This document shows, piece after piece, positions 6,385 through 26,006 of a stretch of DNA of 27,674 nucleotides (position 1 is its first letter; each line of letters opens with the position of its first letter). Below the pieces are notes generated by a model that was given only the letters and a program-made list of their open reading frames with translations, did not search any database and had not been told where the DNA came from. Location of the stretch: the IMG/VR virus record IMGVR_UViG_3300032284_000732, positions 1-27,674 of that record; one strand, given 5' to 3'. The position numbers were made by a program, and so were the translations under genes. This DNA is from a virus.

Positions 6385-6392
6385 CATAAATA
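6385..6392 (+). promoter_or_regulatory. Late promoter of the 106-residue protein gene
   Basis: CATAAATA differs from the T4 late consensus at the first base only. The expected start is about 6398, just inside the hairpin at 6394-6415 and ahead of the GGAG site at 6421-6424. Confidence 0.65.
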
Positions 6393-6393
6393 A

Positions 6394-6415
6394 TTGTATG
6401 CGCGAAAGCGTACAA
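6394..6415 (+). other. 5' leader hairpin
   Basis: TTGTATGC (6394-6401) pairs with GCGTACAA (6408-6415), with one G-T wobble and a GCGAAA loop. If the late start is at about 6398 the RNA would begin within the left arm, putting a hairpin at the 5' end, an arrangement that can protect abundant phage mRNAs. The ribosome site six bases downstream stays free. Confidence 0.55.
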
Positions 6416-6783: not shown

Positions 6784-6814
6784 AAAAAGGCAGAATTTAG
6801 TTCTGCCTTTTTTT
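6784..6814 (+). terminator. Strong Rho-independent terminator
   Basis: A 12-bp perfect stem (AAAAAGGCAGAA at 6784-6795 and TTCTGCCTTTTT at 6801-6812) with a TTTAG loop, followed by more T to 6814. It ends the 106-residue protein unit; the next late promoter starts four bases later. Confidence 0.93.
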
Positions 6815-6817
6815 GTC

Positions 6818-6825
6818 TATAAATA
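6818..6825 (+). promoter_or_regulatory. Consensus T4-type late promoter
   Basis: An exact TATAAATA, preceded by C. The expected start is about 6831 and the ATG is at 6834, so the message is nearly leaderless. Confidence 0.75.
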
Positions 6826-6833
6826 TCTTAGAC

Positions 6834-7271
6834 ATGTCTACAAACGAAAAATTATATACGTATTACGGTTTTAGTCTAATAGATATAACACCAACTGGTG
6901 TTACTTCATTTAGTCAAGAAAAAGAACGCGAAAGAAACCAACAGCGTAATTGGGAAACTGTCAACCAAATACTTAGTCTAAGAACGCAACTGTTAGATCT
7001 ACAATACATGGGCAATTTAGTTGCAGATGTATCTAACTACAGCTTTGGTATTAACTATACCGGACAGCACAAGATATGGCAGTTTAAATTTAAGGTAGAA
7101 TATGAAGATGTGTATGCAAGCACCAATGATAGATACGGCGGGCTTAAACAAGATTTAAAAATTATACCTATTATATTAAATCTAGACGAAACTGCCAAAC
7201 CAGACATTGCATTATTCTATACCAGTGGTCCATTTAAAAATATGTACTTTAAGTCTGTACTAGAAACATAA
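6834..7271 (+). CDS. Conserved phage protein, unknown function (probable virion-associated)
   Basis: 145 residues from ATG 6834. The frame extends upstream to a TTG at 6813, but that would place the consensus late promoter inside the coding region, so I reject it. The protein has a charged, Gln/Arg-rich helix (SQEKERERNQQRNWETV), then a segment starting LSLRTQ and a mixed beta part rich in aromatic residues. RNQQRNWET followed by LRTQ is a pattern I associate with conserved hypothetical proteins of T4-like phages, without known role. No membrane segment or enzyme motif is seen. Placement among late genes supports a structural role; the assignment is inference. Confidence 0.7.
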   Translation: MSTNEKLYTYYGFSLIDITPTGVTSFSQEKERERNQQRNWETVNQILSLRTQLLDLQYMGNLVADVSNYSFGINYTGQHKIWQFKFKVEYEDVYASTNDRYGGLKQDLKIIPIILNLDETAKPDIALFYTSGPFKNMYFKSVLET

Positions 7272-7368: not shown

Positions 7369-7632
7369 ATGTCTGCACCGACAGAAATTGAAAAACAAAA
7401 TCTAGAAGCCCACGTTGAGATATGTGCTGTAAGGTACACTAACTTGGAAAATAAACTTAATAATCTAGAAGAAAGAATAGACAAGGTTGAAGAACATCTT
7501 GTTGATATCAAGAACAGTTTAAACAATAGACTTGTTGGTCAGGATAAACAGACTATCAATATATTTGTTACACTGGGCGGAGTAATACTTGCGGCTCTGC
7601 TAGGATTTATCACACACGCAATCCTACACTAA
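7369..7632 (+). CDS. Small coiled-coil protein with C-terminal membrane anchor, XhlA-like
   Basis: 87 residues: residues about 24-58 form a heptad-rich coiled coil (ENKLNNLEERIDKVEEHL), and residues 64-86 a hydrophobic membrane segment ending near the C-terminus. This architecture matches XhlA-type haemolysin/holin-accessory proteins and many small phage membrane proteins. The ATG is preceded by AAGGA at 7356-7360, which lies in the loop of a small TCGCT/AGCGA hairpin (7347-7351 and 7363-7367). I infer a late inner-membrane protein, possibly in lysis; no endolysin gene is nearby to support that. Confidence 0.68.
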   Translation: MSAPTEIEKQNLEAHVEICAVRYTNLENKLNNLEERIDKVEEHLVDIKNSLNNRLVGQDKQTINIFVTLGGVILAALLGFITHAILH

Positions 7633-7635
7633 ATA
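7630..7635 (+). promoter_or_regulatory. Late promoter (CTAAATA type)
   Basis: CTAAATATA at 7629-7637 overlaps the TAA stop of the upstream gene and is followed 25 bases later by an ATG with an AGG site. It is the same variant as at 11087, 23619 and 27592. Confidence 0.5.
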
Positions 7636-7660
7636 TAACTAACTTACACAGGTTAATTAT

Positions 7661-7870
7661 ATGAAGATCGTAGAACTTACCAATGCACTGTTATTACCGT
7701 TAACAAATGAGGAACATGATTTGTTAAAGAAATTTGTCAATAATGAACCTGTGCCTAAACATCAACTAGAAGAACGCGAACAACTTTTGGCTAATAATCT
7801 AACCCAAAAAGACGTGTTATTGAGAACAAATGACGCCGGCAAAATCTACTACAAAAAACGAATTAGTTGA
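7661..7870 (+). CDS. Small conserved phage protein, unknown function
   Basis: 69 residues, acidic to neutral, probably helical, with LTNEEHDLLKKFVNNEPVP and a C-terminal RTNDAGKIYYKKR. ATG at 7661 with a weak AGG at 7651-7653. It resembles a short protein common in T4-like phages of aquatic bacteria (N-E-P-P-K/S-L-ERE-LA-NL---DVL-R). It overlaps the next gene by 41 bases in another frame, so the two are likely coupled. The N-terminus MKIVEL shares the M-(K/R)-x-x-E-(I/L/M) signature of four other genes in the window. No function is known to me. Confidence 0.65.
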   Translation: MKIVELTNALLLPLTNEEHDLLKKFVNNEPVPKHQLEEREQLLANNLTQKDVLLRTNDAGKIYYKKRIS

Positions 7871-9000: not shown

Positions 9001-9375
9001 GTGCGAATTGATGAACTTATCCATAGTCAATACAATACTCCAGAGACTAATTTAACAACAGCTCTGGAGTTATTGCGCTATAGATATGCAGATAAAGATC
9101 AAACACCAGTAATCAGCACACAAGCTCTTATTAATCTAGTATTAAACACAGACAAAACTTTTAACTATGATGCCCTCAAGGCAGCATATGAAAATAATCC
9201 CAGTGTTAAAAACCTTATTAAAAGTTTCAACAAACAACAGGTAACATTACAACCCTTAGATGCAAGCGACGAAACCAACACCACGGTAGGTGATGCATCA
9301 ACCACAGCGCCAGTAGATACCGTATCTAAAATGGCCAAACGTGCCGCAAAATCACGTGGCAGCGACCTTTTCTAA
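9001..9375 (+). CDS. Small late protein, unknown function
   Basis: 124 residues beginning at GTG 9001, two bases after the preceding stop. The N-terminus MRIDELI again fits the M-(K/R)-x-x-E-(I/L/M) pattern. The first two thirds are helical (ETNLTTALELLRYRYADKD, TQALINLVLNTDKTFNYDAL); the C-terminus is a Thr/Ala-rich linker ending in a basic MAKRAAKSRGSDLF tail. No good Shine-Dalgarno is seen, so it is likely translated by coupling to the gene before. A role in the head is inferred from its neighbour. The basic tail could contact DNA, but this is speculative. Confidence 0.65.
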   Translation: MRIDELIHSQYNTPETNLTTALELLRYRYADKDQTPVISTQALINLVLNTDKTFNYDALKAAYENNPSVKNLIKSFNKQQVTLQPLDASDETNTTVGDASTTAPVDTVSKMAKRAAKSRGSDLF

Positions 9376-9380
9376 AATCC

Positions 9381-9409
9381 TTGACTTTTCAGTGTAAATA
9401 CCATAGTAT
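9381..9409 (+). promoter_or_regulatory. Sigma70-type promoter of the Fe-S cassette
   Basis: TTGACT (9381-9386), a 17-base spacer and TAGTAT (9404-9409, 4/6 match to TATAAT). The start is expected near 9416, leaving a ~40-base leader before iscU. The -10 box lies within an inverted repeat. Confidence 0.72.
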
Positions 9410-9422
9410 ATTAGTATACTAT
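9403..9422 (+). promoter_or_regulatory. Inverted-repeat operator candidate over -10 and +1
   Basis: A perfect 8-bp inverted repeat, ATAGTATA (9403-9410), TTAG spacer, TATACTAT (9415-9422), is centred just upstream of the predicted start, where a bound dimer would block polymerase. Confidence 0.5.
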
Positions 9423-9426
9423 TATC

Positions 9427-9442
9427 GTATGCTATTGCATAC
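9427..9442 (+). other. Hairpin in the iscU leader
   Basis: GTATGC and GCATAC pair across a TATT loop, four bases before the GGAG ribosome site at 9447-9450. It could stabilise the mRNA 5' end or tune initiation; no riboswitch-like structure is apparent. Confidence 0.5.
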
Positions 9443-9456
9443 ATTTGGAGATAAAT

Positions 9457-9846
9457 ATGGCTTATTCAGCGCAGGTGTTAGACCATTACGAAAATCCTCG
9501 TAATGTGGGCAGTCTGGATAAAAACAGTCCAGACGTAGGCACAGGTATGGTAGGCGCACCAGCTTGTGGTGACGTTATGAAATTACAGATTGAAGTACAT
9601 GATGGTATTATAACAGATGCAAAGTTTAAAACTTATGGGTGTGGAAGTGCTATTGCTAGCAGTTCGCTTGTTACGGAAATGCTTAAGGGTCGTACTCTTG
9701 ATGAGGCAACTAGTATCAAAAACTCAGACATCGCAGAAGAACTAGCATTACCACCAGTTAAGATACATTGCAGCGTACTAGCAGAAGACGCTATTAAATC
9801 AGCAATCGCAGACTATAAGAAAAAACATGAAACAATCGCAAATTGA
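9457..9846 (+). CDS. iscU: Iron-sulfur cluster scaffold IscU
   Basis: Scaffold on which [2Fe-2S] clusters are built from sulfur delivered by the cysteine desulfurase IscS, in the cytosol. All key residues are present: Cys37, Asp39, Cys62, His104 and Cys105, in the contexts GAPACGD, TYGCGSA and IHCS. The LPPVK motif recognised by the chaperone HscA is intact at residues 98-102. The length of 129 residues is that of bacterial IscU. I start at ATG 9457, which has GGAG 6 bases upstream, rather than at the TTG at 9445. No iscS, hscA or hscB is in the window, so it would depend on host partners. It overlaps the DUF1289 gene by 20 bases and heads a three-gene cassette. Close similarity to proteobacterial IscU suggests host acquisition. 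Confidence 0.96.
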   Translation: MAYSAQVLDHYENPRNVGSLDKNSPDVGTGMVGAPACGDVMKLQIEVHDGIITDAKFKTYGCGSAIASSSLVTEMLKGRTLDEATSIKNSDIAEELALPPVKIHCSVLAEDAIKSAIADYKKKHETIAN

Positions 9847-22746: not shown

Positions 22747-22980
22747 TTAACTGTTTTTTAACATAAAATAGGTAATAAACTGATTTGCCTGTGACTCTAG
22801 TCTGGCATCCCAATGCCATATGTTATAGCTCATACGACGCACACCTTTTACCTGATCTAGCTCTTGTACTAGAGTTTGTACAGAAACGTCATATAGTTTG
22901 CCCTTGAGAAAATCGGTTGACCCTTCCCATGACATGGTCATAACTAAATGGTTATTATGTTTTTCTAGAGTTAAATTCAC
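22747..22980 (-). CDS. First small protein of the minus-strand operon (member A)
   Basis: 77 residues from GTG 22980: LTLEKHNNHLVMTMSWEG, KLYDVSVQTLVQELDQVKG and the C-terminal ANQFITYFMLKNS, which loosely matches the family endings of genes B to E. The start codon lies six bases after a perfect TATAAT, so its message is likely leaderless, and the start is GTG, unlike the ATG of most neighbours. First-in-operon placement suggests an immediate-early product. Function unknown. Confidence 0.6.
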   Translation of the reverse strand: MNLTLEKHNNHLVMTMSWEGSTDFLKGKLYDVSVQTLVQELDQVKGVRRMSYNIWHWDARLESQANQFITYFMLKNS

Positions 22981-22981
22981 T

Positions 22982-23005
22982 CTACTATTATATACTACTA
23001 TTATA
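22982..23005 (-). repeat. 11-base direct repeat in the operon promoter
   Basis: The minus-strand sequence TATAATAGTAG is repeated after two bases. It covers spacer and -10 region, and could be a recent duplication or a tandem binding site. Confidence 0.7.
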
Positions 23006-23015
23006 CCAAAGTCAA
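22987..23015 (-). promoter_or_regulatory. Consensus sigma70-type promoter of the minus-strand operon
   Basis: On the minus strand: TTGACT (23015-23010), a 17-base spacer, TATAAT (22992-22987), then GTG at 22980. An extra TATAAT copy lies in the spacer because the 11-base direct repeat TATAATAGTAG occurs twice (complement of 22982-22992 and 22995-23005, period 13). The expected start coincides with the start codon. Confidence 0.85.
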
Positions 23016-23026
23016 CGATAATCTGC

Positions 23027-23055
23027 TTGACTTTTTATAGATTATGTTATAACAT
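23027..23055 (+). promoter_or_regulatory. Early promoter diverging from the minus-strand operon
   Basis: TTGACT (23027-23032) followed 17 bases on by TAACAT (23050-23055, 4/6); an alternative TATAAC with a 15-base spacer lies at 23048-23053. The -35 boxes of the divergent pair are only 11 bases apart. Confidence 0.62.
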
Positions 23056-23056
23056 A
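23043..23056 (+). promoter_or_regulatory. Palindromic operator candidate
   Basis: TATGTTATAACATA is a perfect 14-bp palindrome covering the -10 region of the rightward promoter. Its core GTTATAAC recurs at 27581-27588, next to the other promoter at the right end of the window. Confidence 0.5.
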
Positions 23057-23085
23057 GTATTTGTGTTATTAAAACGGACTATGCA

Positions 23086-23295
23086 ATGGCATCAATACTA
23101 AAATATCTAGAAAAATCGTTTGTTAAAAGACCTTTCGATCCCAACAGTAGGAAAGATCTAAGGATCTATAAACACTTTGTAGAGACTGGTGGCTGGGGTG
23201 AAGTATGCCCATTTGAACTAGAGTGGCCATATCTTAACATACCTCATATGTGCGCTGAAAAATTAACCAAAGCTGTGCTCGCTAAAATTAAGTAA
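23086..23295 (+). CDS. Small early protein, unknown function
   Basis: 69 residues from ATG 23086. An ATG five bases earlier opens only a six-codon frame. Visible blocks are a basic N-terminal helix (SILKYLEKSFVKRPFDPNS), a KDLRIYKHFVETGGWGEVCPF turn, and LEWPYLNIPHMC. The pattern (F-D-P-x2-R-K-D-L, WG--CPF-LEWPY-IP-M) looks conserved, but I know no function. It has its own promoter with a palindrome in the -10 region, divergent from the minus-strand operon. Immediate-early expression is likely, making a host-takeover or regulatory role possible. Confidence 0.65.
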   Translation: MASILKYLEKSFVKRPFDPNSRKDLRIYKHFVETGGWGEVCPFELEWPYLNIPHMCAEKLTKAVLAKIK

Positions 23296-23301
23296 CCTAA
23301 C

Positions 23302-23332
23302 CTGACCTATAAATATTTGTTTATTAGGTCAG
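23302..23332 (+). promoter_or_regulatory. Stem-loop that can mask the ribosome site in early read-through RNA
   Basis: CTGACCTA (23302-23309) and TAGGTCAG (23325-23332) form a perfect 8-bp stem with a 15-base loop. The only ribosome-site-like sequence for the ATG at 23337, AGG at 23326-23328, lies in the right arm. RNA starting at the late promoter lacks the left arm, leaving the site free. Confidence 0.65.
23308..23315 (+). promoter_or_regulatory. Consensus T4-type late promoter in a hairpin loop
   Basis: Exact TATAAATA, whose first two bases end the left arm of the inverted repeat 23302-23332. The expected start is about 23321, downstream of the left arm. Confidence 0.78.
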
Positions 23333-23336
23333 TGCA

Positions 23337-23615
23337 ATGTCTTTATATAGTTACCTAGTTGGCAATACTCACTTAGTTACACCTGTGTTAAAAAAGGGTT
23401 GGATTAGTCTATATCCTGAAGTTAACATGTACTTTTACTTTGGTCAAGATCCTGTGGCCACAAACAAATGTGCATTACTAAAAGCCAATGAACAGAGACG
23501 TATAAGACTACCGGTAAAATGTACCAAACTATCACTGCTGGCTGTATCTAATCCTGGTGTAATCACAATTACAGAAGAAAATGAAGGCGTGACTGCTAGT
23601 TGTTCGGCCCAATAA
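23337..23615 (+). CDS. Small beta-rich late protein, possible decoration protein
   Basis: 92 residues: WISLYPEVNMYFYFGQDPVATNK and RRIRLPVKCTKLSLLAVSNPG form a likely beta sandwich with an Asp/Glu-rich end. It has a consensus late promoter and a hairpin that can mask its ribosome site. I recall similar short proteins (LYP-G--YY--G-DPVAT) in T4-like phages near fibre or capsid genes, so a capsid decoration or fibre accessory role is plausible, but not shown. No signal peptide or membrane segment. Three Cys are present. Confidence 0.65.
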   Translation: MSLYSYLVGNTHLVTPVLKKGWISLYPEVNMYFYFGQDPVATNKCALLKANEQRRIRLPVKCTKLSLLAVSNPGVITITEENEGVTASCSAQ

Positions 23616-23633
23616 CTGCTAAATACAGTTATT
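23611..23633 (+). promoter_or_regulatory. Stem-loop whose loop is a late promoter
   Basis: AATAACTG (23611-23618) and CAGTTATT (23626-23633) form a perfect 8-bp stem. The seven-base loop, CTAAATA, is itself the late promoter core. The gene starts at GTG 23649 with GGA at 23639-23641, just outside the stem. Confidence 0.62.
23619..23625 (+). promoter_or_regulatory. Late promoter (CTAAATA)
   Basis: CTAAATA sits exactly between the arms of the inverted repeat 23611-23633. The expected start is near 23631, so late RNA would not contain the left arm. Confidence 0.6.
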
Positions 23634-23648
23634 AGACTGGAAAAACTC

Positions 23649-26006
23649 GTGTCAGCAAACGGAATATCATCACTATCGACTAAGCAAGCAAAACAAGCGG
23701 CTAAACTTGACATTGCTTCGGCAAAACGCCAGGGCAAGGTTGTTGCTGTTGACGGAACTATATCCGGTAGCGCAGATCCTACTAAGAATTATGCACGTTC
23801 AAGAGCATATTACGATATTACACAGTTGCCTACACAGTATAGTGGCAACGGCATTACGGATAATCCTAACACAGACGGATTGGTTGTGGGTCGCCCATGG
23901 ATTTCCATCAGCTATAGTATATCTCCAAATACATCAGCAGTCAACGAAGGTGATACGATTACCTACACAGTTACCACAGTTGGCGTAGCAGATGGTACAA
24001 CCTTATACTGGACTGATGATGGTACCACAACCGGACCAGACTTTACGGACAGCAATGCCAGCGGATCATTTACTATTACCAGCGGATCAGGAACATTTAG
24101 TAGAACACTATTAAATGACTACCTAACCGAAGGTACAGAAACTATTATCATACACATTCGTACTGGCAGCATAAACGGTCCTATCGTAGCTACCAGCGGC
24201 ACAGTATCAGTTGCCGATACTTCAATACCTGTTGTTGATCAATATGGTTACTTTGAACAGCAGTTACTTGCCGGCACCTATATGACATTTGATCAAACTA
24301 TCGCTGGAGTAAGCCTGAGATTTATCTCTACTAACTTTGACGGAACACTAAACGGTAACCCCCTCCAGCACGGAAGTTATATTAGAGCCAACGGTGTTAT
24401 GGTTGCTACCGACCACACAAGCAGTCCAGACAACATTGATAATAGCGTAGTTGGTGGTAGTGCATCATTTAGCGGAACCAGCCAATACCTATCTACTAGT
24501 AATGCTAGCCTTAATTTGACTGGAGATTTCACAGTTGAAGGATGGTTTTATCCAACAAACGTGACTGGCTTTCACGCTTTATGGACATTTGGTCAAGCAA
24601 GTGCCGGCAGATATACAGTCCAACTAAGTGGAACTTCTGTGTTGTCTAACTTGTATAGTGCGGGGTCAACAACCTACACCAGTACAGTCTCTATCAATAC
24701 TTGGACACATATTGCCATGGTACGTTCAGGTACCACAGTCAAAGTCTATATCAACGGCGTTGCCAGTGCAACAACAGATTCACAATCCGGAACAATCGGC
24801 AATGGTGGCTATTTGAATATTGGTGCAGACGATAGCGGCGCCACTAACTTTGCTGGTAGAATTACCAGTTTTAGAGTAGTAAATGGAACAGCGGTTTATA
24901 CCAGTAATTTTACGAAATCACCAAACCCATTATTACCTATAACAAACACTAAACTGTTGTTAACAGAATTAACCAGCGGTGACTTGGTAGCAGATACCGG
25001 CCCAAACAAATTAACATTAACTAACAATGGCTTGGTAACTTGGAACTCGGCTACACCATTTACAGCTGGTAGCCCAACAGCATTACCTAGTCCTAGCGAC
25101 CCTCCAAGCAACAACGGACTTGGATTCTGTATGCGTCGTGGACATACTATTGTGGCATTAAATCTTGATGGTACTGTTCAAAGCGCCAGCTGGTATGATA
25201 CTTGGCTGACTGTTGGTTTAGGTACTAACATAGCCGCACTGCTAAAATCATTCTTACCTGGTACGATCGTGGCTATTGGTACATTTGATGCTTGTGGTGT
25301 TAACCAAGACTTCCGTGATTGCCTAACCAACTACTTTGGTGATACTACATTTACCAACACTTGGAGCGGAACTAGACTTAGTCAAATGTTCTTGGCCATA
25401 GTTCAGAAAAAGATCCTAACATTTAATGGCAGTTCTAGCCGCATACAAGTGGGCGGTACACCATCAGACTGGGGCATACAGTTAAATTATACCATAGAGT
25501 TCTGGAGCAAAGCCGCAGTAGCTACTACTTCAAGTGGCTTATTAACCATCATGTCGCAACAGCCTAACAACAATACCATTGATATGTATCTACAAAACGG
25601 TAATCTATATGTCAACAACGGTAGGGCACTTTGCGCTGAACCTACCCCAGGAGTTTGGACACACGTGGCTATAACCTGCTCGGGTGGTGGCTCAACTGAC
25701 ACAAACGTATACTACAACGGTATCAATGTCTATAACGGCCCGGGTTACTACGCCAACGATACAAGCAATGATCTATGGATCGGCCGCCGCGGTAACAACG
25801 ACTTCCAGTATTTCAACGGAAAACTAACAAATATCAGAATCAGCAACACAGTTCGTTACTCGGGAACATTTACTCCACCAGTGACACTGGTAACTGATGC
25901 CAACACTAAGCTAGCATTAGACGGTAACCTAGTTGATCGCAGCGCCAGCGCACATACTATCGCTAATACTAGTGTGGCTACTAGTAATTTAGATTTCCCA
26001 ACGTAA
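23649..26006 (+). CDS. Modular adhesin: Calx-beta-like, two LamG and an ILEI-like domain
   Basis: 785 residues from GTG 23649. Domains in order: N-terminal helix and anchoring segment (1-82, with ARSRAYYDITQLPTQYSGNG and NPNTDGLVVGRPW, a pattern I associate with phage fibre attachment regions); a Calx-beta/Ig-like domain (about 84-195); a first concanavalin-like/LamG domain (about 270-440) with SGTSQYL, FTVEGWFYP and WTHIAMVRSG; an ILEI/FAM3-like domain (490-585) with RRGHTIVALNLDGTVQSASW and PGTIVAIGTFDACG; and a second LamG domain (588-760) with YTIEFWSKA, WTHVAITCSG and LWIGRRG. These are glycan- or protein-binding folds, so this is likely a host-recognition protein. No trimerisation motif is evident. 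Confidence 0.86.
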   Translation: MSANGISSLSTKQAKQAAKLDIASAKRQGKVVAVDGTISGSADPTKNYARSRAYYDITQLPTQYSGNGITDNPNTDGLVVGRPWISISYSISPNTSAVNEGDTITYTVTTVGVADGTTLYWTDDGTTTGPDFTDSNASGSFTITSGSGTFSRTLLNDYLTEGTETIIIHIRTGSINGPIVATSGTVSVADTSIPVVDQYGYFEQQLLAGTYMTFDQTIAGVSLRFISTNFDGTLNGNPLQHGSYIRANGVMVATDHTSSPDNIDNSVVGGSASFSGTSQYLSTSNASLNLTGDFTVEGWFYPTNVTGFHALWTFGQASAGRYTVQLSGTSVLSNLYSAGSTTYTSTVSINTWTHIAMVRSGTTVKVYINGVASATTDSQSGTIGNGGYLNIGADDSGATNFAGRITSFRVVNGTAVYTSNFTKSPNPLLPITNTKLLLTELTSGDLVADTGPNKLTLTNNGLVTWNSATPFTAGSPTALPSPSDPPSNNGLGFCMRRGHTIVALNLDGTVQSASWYDTWLTVGLGTNIAALLKSFLPGTIVAIGTFDACGVNQDFRDCLTNYFGDTTFTNTWSGTRLSQMFLAIVQKKILTFNGSSSRIQVGGTPSDWGIQLNYTIEFWSKAAVATTSSGLLTIMSQQPNNNTIDMYLQNGNLYVNNGRALCAEPTPGVWTHVAITCSGGGSTDTNVYYNGINVYNGPGYYANDTSNDLWIGRRGNNDFQYFNGKLTNIRISNTVRYSGTFTPPVTLVTDANTKLALDGNLVDRSASAHTIANTSVATSNLDFPT

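Follow-up and report, generated by a model that had tools for sequence, protein, structure and literature searches.

In a T4-related phage, the late gene that starts at position 23337 is probably controlled in cis by a translational switch between the early and late phases, of the kind described for the e, soc and I-TevI genes of T4. The switch would reside at positions 23302-23332, in a hairpin that is predicted to mask the Shine-Dalgarno (SD) sequence of the gene. The window analysed here is a whole virus record of 27,674 bases, a fragment from an uncultivated T4-related freshwater phage. Its genes include those for a primase, a DnaB-type helicase, tail components and a ribonucleotide reductase. 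A peptide deformylase is also encoded by the phage (20742-21191, minus strand). The closest relatives that were collected are IMG/VR contigs, and gene order is common to them over much of the window. A DNA search of annotated phages returned none with detectable similarity to the region around 23302-23336. The features on which the argument is built are the following.

23027..23055, plus strand: early (sigma70-type) promoter of the upstream gene, TTGACT-17-TAACAT, matching the consensus at 9 of 12 positions
23086..23295, plus strand: upstream early gene, 69 aa, an open reading frame whose homologues, in most relatives, immediately precede that of 23337
23302..23309, plus strand: left arm CTGACCTA, from sequence and fold, expected only in read-through RNA
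23308..23315, plus strand: T4-type late promoter -10 element TATAAATA, in the stem, an exact match, with TAAATA in homologues
23321..23321, plus strand: late transcription start, predicted by analogy with T4 late promoters
23325..23332, plus strand: right arm TAGGTCAG with the Shine-Dalgarno AGG at 23326-23328, from sequence, fold and pair probabilities
23337..23615, plus strand: late gene under the putative switch, 92 aa, a small all-beta protein, from the open reading frame, homologues and a model with pLDDT 85.9
7630..7662, plus strand: second putative switch, before gene 7661, with TAAATA at 7630-7635 and arms at 7633-7645 and 7650-7662, from fold, accessibility (p 0.008) and covariation

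The preliminary description of this DNA had reported an 8-bp stem between CTGACCTA and TAGGTCAG, with an AGG in the right arm. Both observations hold at the coordinates given above, all 8 of the 8 pairs being perfect, and the ATG follows at 23337. The same description had put an exact TATAAATA in the loop. The element is indeed there, at 23308-23315; its placement had to be corrected, as it shares bases with the left arm and is mostly contained in the upper stem rather than in the loop, because the fold extends past the 8 bp. Beyond them, a bulged U, five further pairs (UAAAU/GUUUA) and a 4-nt loop, AUUU, are predicted. The folding energy of the RNA from 23290 to 23345 is -13.0 kcal/mol (z -2.89), an energy equalled or bettered by 3 of 200 shuffles. 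When the flanks were shuffled and the promoter was kept fixed, a stem of at least 8 bp appeared in 2.4% of trials, a proportion that is not corrected for the seven late leaders with an SD found in the window. Considering this number of leaders, no great weight can be given to the stem on its own. The window also contains about 2.5 times as many perfect 8 bp repeats as shuffles do (27 versus 11), many of those in the window being terminators or intragenic repeats. Therefore, the repeat by itself was not counted as evidence.

Masking of the translation start was assessed as the energy required to open the region from the SD to the AUG, in RNA that included or lacked the sequence preceding the late start. 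As a control, this upstream part was replaced by those of other late promoters. For gene 23337, the computed opening cost is 14.1 kcal/mol when the upstream part is present and 5.7 kcal/mol when it is absent, so that an RNA beginning at the T4-type late start, devoid of the left arm, is about 8.5 kcal/mol cheaper to open. Swapped upstream parts gave a mean of 6.1 kcal/mol, with p 0.007 for an equally closed SD and start. With a composition-matched (dinucleotide) shuffle of the leader's own flank, P was 0.051, a value that probably arises from the ACCT repeats in this flank. Taken alone, the 23302 site is only modestly above chance, at P 0.007 to 0.05 depending on the control. In the predicted early RNA including the left arm, the unpaired probability of the AGG is 0.00 to 0.03. 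In the late RNA, the AGG may still be held by codons 5-7 in a less stable predicted hairpin, and the cost of this residual pairing is similar to that in T4 soc and segB. Calibration on T4 ranked soc, e, 49, I-TevII, segB, 53 and I-TevI first among 29 late leaders; genes 18, 19, 20, 34 and 36 were null. The opening cost at 23337 lies among those of the established T4 switches. As a separate observation, T4 genes 53 (p 0.000; L171:27385) and 51 (p 0.071; L172:16479) score like e and soc and are missing from the published lists of switches (PMC3014915, PMC2988022).

Hairpin switches of T4 have been listed in two reviews (PMC3014915, PMC2988022). For e, the longer RNA is translated 100-fold less (PMC3014915). 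In the leaders of e (lysozyme) and soc, the late promoter TATAAATA overlaps the DNA for the 5′ strand of the stem, as observed here. The long early RNA of these genes is masked at the SD and the late RNA is free; the same is predicted at 23337, and the accessibility scores of e, soc and the 23302 site are similar. As in T4-type switches, a stem pairs the SD in the longer RNA (8 bp, p 0.007; composition-matched P 0.051), and the late RNA would be deprived of the 5′ strand of the stem, since the left arm does not extend past the -10 element and the start is predicted beyond it. However, the gene in the window is a different one, the sequence is non-homologous and the phage is distant. Moreover, relatives of the window protect the gene by a terminator or a leaderless start and not by a conserved hairpin. 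The promoter-in-hairpin layout also occurs at homing-endonuclease genes of T4 and Aeh1 (PMC2988022). The layout of T4 I-TevI, I-TevII and segB and of Aeh1 mobE is the same as in the window, and relatives of the window have it before GIY-YIG and HNH-like genes, whereas the window gene has no endonuclease match. The late-promoter hairpins over the SD in these relatives were seen at GIY-YIG (SegE-like) genes (L127:662-1379, L129, L064, L044) and at HNH-like genes assigned by their sequence (L112:2371-3072, L134, L136, L137, L153, L065). Another late-promoter hairpin, ATCCTCAGTT/AACTGGGGAT (L163:2500-2560), is very strong, with 23.7 kcal/mol to open. The gene behind it follows clpP and precedes a tail-fibre-like gene homologous to 23649.

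In T4 late promoters, transcription starts at the sixth base after TATAAATA. The use of T4-type late promoters by the present phage may be taken as a sound assumption, because TAAATA is found before homologues of late genes at a distance from the start codon that hardly varies, because some relatives encode a late sigma factor and because T4 late genes have, roughly one helical turn before the start, a TATA box of 8 bp (PMC2988020). This distance is kept before homologues of 5570 (72/72), 6434 (112/112), 8336 (143/143), 7661 (140/151), 6834 (126/148) and 11119 (41/43), and TAAATA is nearly absent before the neighbours 7369 (1/153), 7830 (0/147) and 9001 (0/127). A T4-type late sigma (phrog_12791) was recognized in 3 of 12 large relatives, with E values of 1e-73 to 1e-81, the window being only a 27.7 kb fragment. 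On the early side, the promoter that had been announced at 23027 was recovered; with 9 of 12 matches and a poor -10, it is weak by consensus. A TTGAC-type promoter stands in front of the orthologues of 23086 in most relatives. A search of positions 22900-23800 for terminators revealed no terminator-like site. Elsewhere in the window, at a NifU-like gene (9370-9457), a TTGAC-type promoter, TAAATA and a palindrome (TAGTAT..TAGTCAACTATTGGAG in relatives) are gathered on a single stretch, perhaps as a tandem early and late promoter.

An initial IMG/VR protein search was empty and would have left gene 23337 an orphan, but the records of the relatives yielded homologues with about 31 to 54% identity. 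A structure model reached a pLDDT of 52 from the single sequence and of 85.9 with ten homologues. The best fold matches of this model are uncharacterised phage proteins. None of its matches in the PDB was significant (all E above 0.005) and, therefore, no function is claimed for 23337. Library searches with the protein and its homologues gave no family, and 23337 had no match to an endonuclease.

The same locus in relatives informs on the possible role of the hairpin. Homologues of 23337 mostly lie directly downstream of the 23086 homologue (exceptions are L216, L218 and L226), and all of them have TAAATA before the late ATG. In 13 of 16 distinct homologous leaders, a terminator hairpin followed by a T-run precedes the late promoter; 10 of these terminators were scored by a script, whereas the loops of the remaining 3 (L213, L216, L220) are longer and these were judged by eye. 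In the other three leaders (L218, L219, L226), TAAATA starts 10-13 nt before the ATG, a near-leaderless arrangement. Six relatives are leadered, with TAAATA at -24 or -25. All six carry a terminator and have open starts, at 2.2 to 4.6 kcal/mol, versus a closed start in the window, at 14.4 kcal/mol. In the alignment, the terminator segment is absent from the window. Among the collected 23337 homologues, the window is the only one to have a leader and an SD without a terminator, and the only one to have a masking hairpin. The 23302-23332 hairpin was found in no 23337 homologue, hence the number of countable compensatory changes at the site is zero. Compensation between the arms in relatives, chosen beforehand as a point on which the reading might fail, does not apply as worded, the hairpin being absent there and a substitute present. 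Intrinsic terminators at the orthologous locus (L179, L193, L182, L225, L229) occupy the same place between 23086 and 23337 and share with the window hairpin a presumed job, stopping early expression. They act on transcription whereas the hairpin, in a window devoid of terminator, would act on translation. In L213-L229, late promoters with a T4-type start at or beside the start codon point to apparently leaderless mRNAs.

A second case was found at gene 7661, the product of which matches a virion structural family. This gene has a late promoter and a stem over both the SD and the AUG. Among 14 homologous leaders, 132 of 140 cells are paired, where shuffles gave 119 (maximum 130). Changes on both sides are present in 10 cells, compared with 2.2 in shuffles (maximum 9). 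Neither value was reached in 5000 shuffles (0/5000), with a statistic that ignores relatedness. In another set of phages, the 7661 homologues have an unrelated stem, GTTATCCTG/TAGGATAAC, that does the same. In many other homologues, TAAATA starts 11 nt before the ATG and the mRNA would be leaderless by the T4 rule; about half of the 7661 homologues have TAAATA at -10 to -14. More generally, among 85 dereplicated SD-bearing late leaders of relatives, 21% have p<=0.05, versus 5% expected. Genome-wide use of the hairpin was considered and abandoned: families 5570, 6434 and 8336 are null and 11119 is partial. Repeats noticed by eye at 6387 and 8306 were no better as switches than swapped upstream flanks, and a hairpin at 23649 is weak (p 0.074) and not kept in most homologues. 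Other arrangements were observed at late leaders. At 6820-6836, TAAATA is at -10 to -14 in 126 of 148 homologues of 6834, which suggests leaderless late mRNAs. Directly before the late promoter of this tail gene, a terminator (6784-6814) is present in 17 of 18 dereplicated relatives and at 0 control positions. Finally, a hairpin GTATGCGCGAAAGCGTAC at 6396-6413, within the late 5′ leader of gene 6434, is conserved in nearly all relatives and is possibly an mRNA-stability or translation element.

Considering the closure of the start in silico, the calibration on T4 and the substitutes in relatives, the switch of the T4 e/soc type envisaged in the preliminary description is supported. Arms, promoter, gene order, missing terminator and substitutes in relatives can be read from the sequences; at 23337, we infer read-through, the late start site, silencing and release. 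A late gene located behind an early gene would have to escape translation from read-through RNA. RNA from the early promoter of 23086 would run on into 23337, because no terminator is present. In this early RNA, the CUGACCUA arm would pair with UAGGUCAG and bury the SD, so that the late protein would not be made early. In the late phase, RNA polymerase with the late sigma factor would start just downstream of TATAAATA, inside the DNA coding for the hairpin. The late RNA, without the left arm, would be translatable. In such a model, this lineage would have replaced the terminator by a hairpin masking the ribosome binding site and cut by the late promoter, as a substitute insulator. That relatives differ in the device used at the same gene is observed, and terminator, leaderless start and masking hairpin look interchangeable. 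That the swap was selected for, as well as the direction of change, is what we infer. The chances appear evenly balanced that, in this phage group, silence of a late gene on read-through RNA is a selected property, ensured by three devices swapped between lineages at orthologous genes: a terminator, a late start at the start codon that leaves the read-through RNA without an SD, or an SD-masking hairpin.

Several other possibilities may be envisaged. In a leader that is rich in A and T, ACCT repeats on the upstream side and AGGT on the downstream side could produce an idle 8 bp stem by chance. Such an origin would agree with the values of P (0.024 for a stem of at least 8 bp, 0.051 for opening under the composition-matched shuffle), with the seven leaders of the window, with the absence of the stem from homologues and with the lack of significance of the look-alike repeats at 6387 and 8306. 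It is nevertheless unlikely, given the result of the swap test (p 0.007), an opening cost of the size computed for established T4 switches and a second, covarying switch in the same phage, at gene 7661. In addition, the stem occurs in the only homologue having a leader and an SD without a terminator, precisely where masking would be needed.

It may also be imagined that the inverted repeat, in DNA or RNA, binds a protein at the late promoter, directs RNA processing or stabilises the late mRNA, the masking of the SD being a side effect. Dual use is known, as an operator for the I-TevI protein of T4 overlaps the late promoter of the same gene (PMC2988022). However, a stabilising stem is impossible since the late RNA would not contain the left arm, the arms vary between genes and phages, which argues against a shared protein site, and no U-run is found at 23302-23332 for a terminator role. 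Uses of this sort are thus most improbable. A masked SD would have little physiological role if little read-through RNA arrived, for instance because of Rho-dependent termination or of a weak early promoter. Read-through is a prediction and the -10 of the 23027 promoter is poor; the intrinsic terminators of relatives at the same spot nevertheless suggest that transcripts from 23086 do read through and that this has a cost, and a minor role of this kind seems decidedly unlikely. The early/late translational switch remains the preferred reading of the 23302-23332 hairpin.

In the two reviews cited above, the hairpin switches are described for one gene after another, mostly of T4 itself and its close relatives (PMC3014915, PMC2988022). 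The same design is now seen in phages from freshwater that have not been cultivated, in one case accompanied by compensatory base changes, at gene 7661, and in another at a locus, 23337, where all the collected relatives have a terminator or a leaderless start. From this substitution in nature, a clear function can be presumed for the hairpin, the insulation of a late gene from early RNA. The substitution also makes this function testable, as the three devices could be exchanged in one construct.
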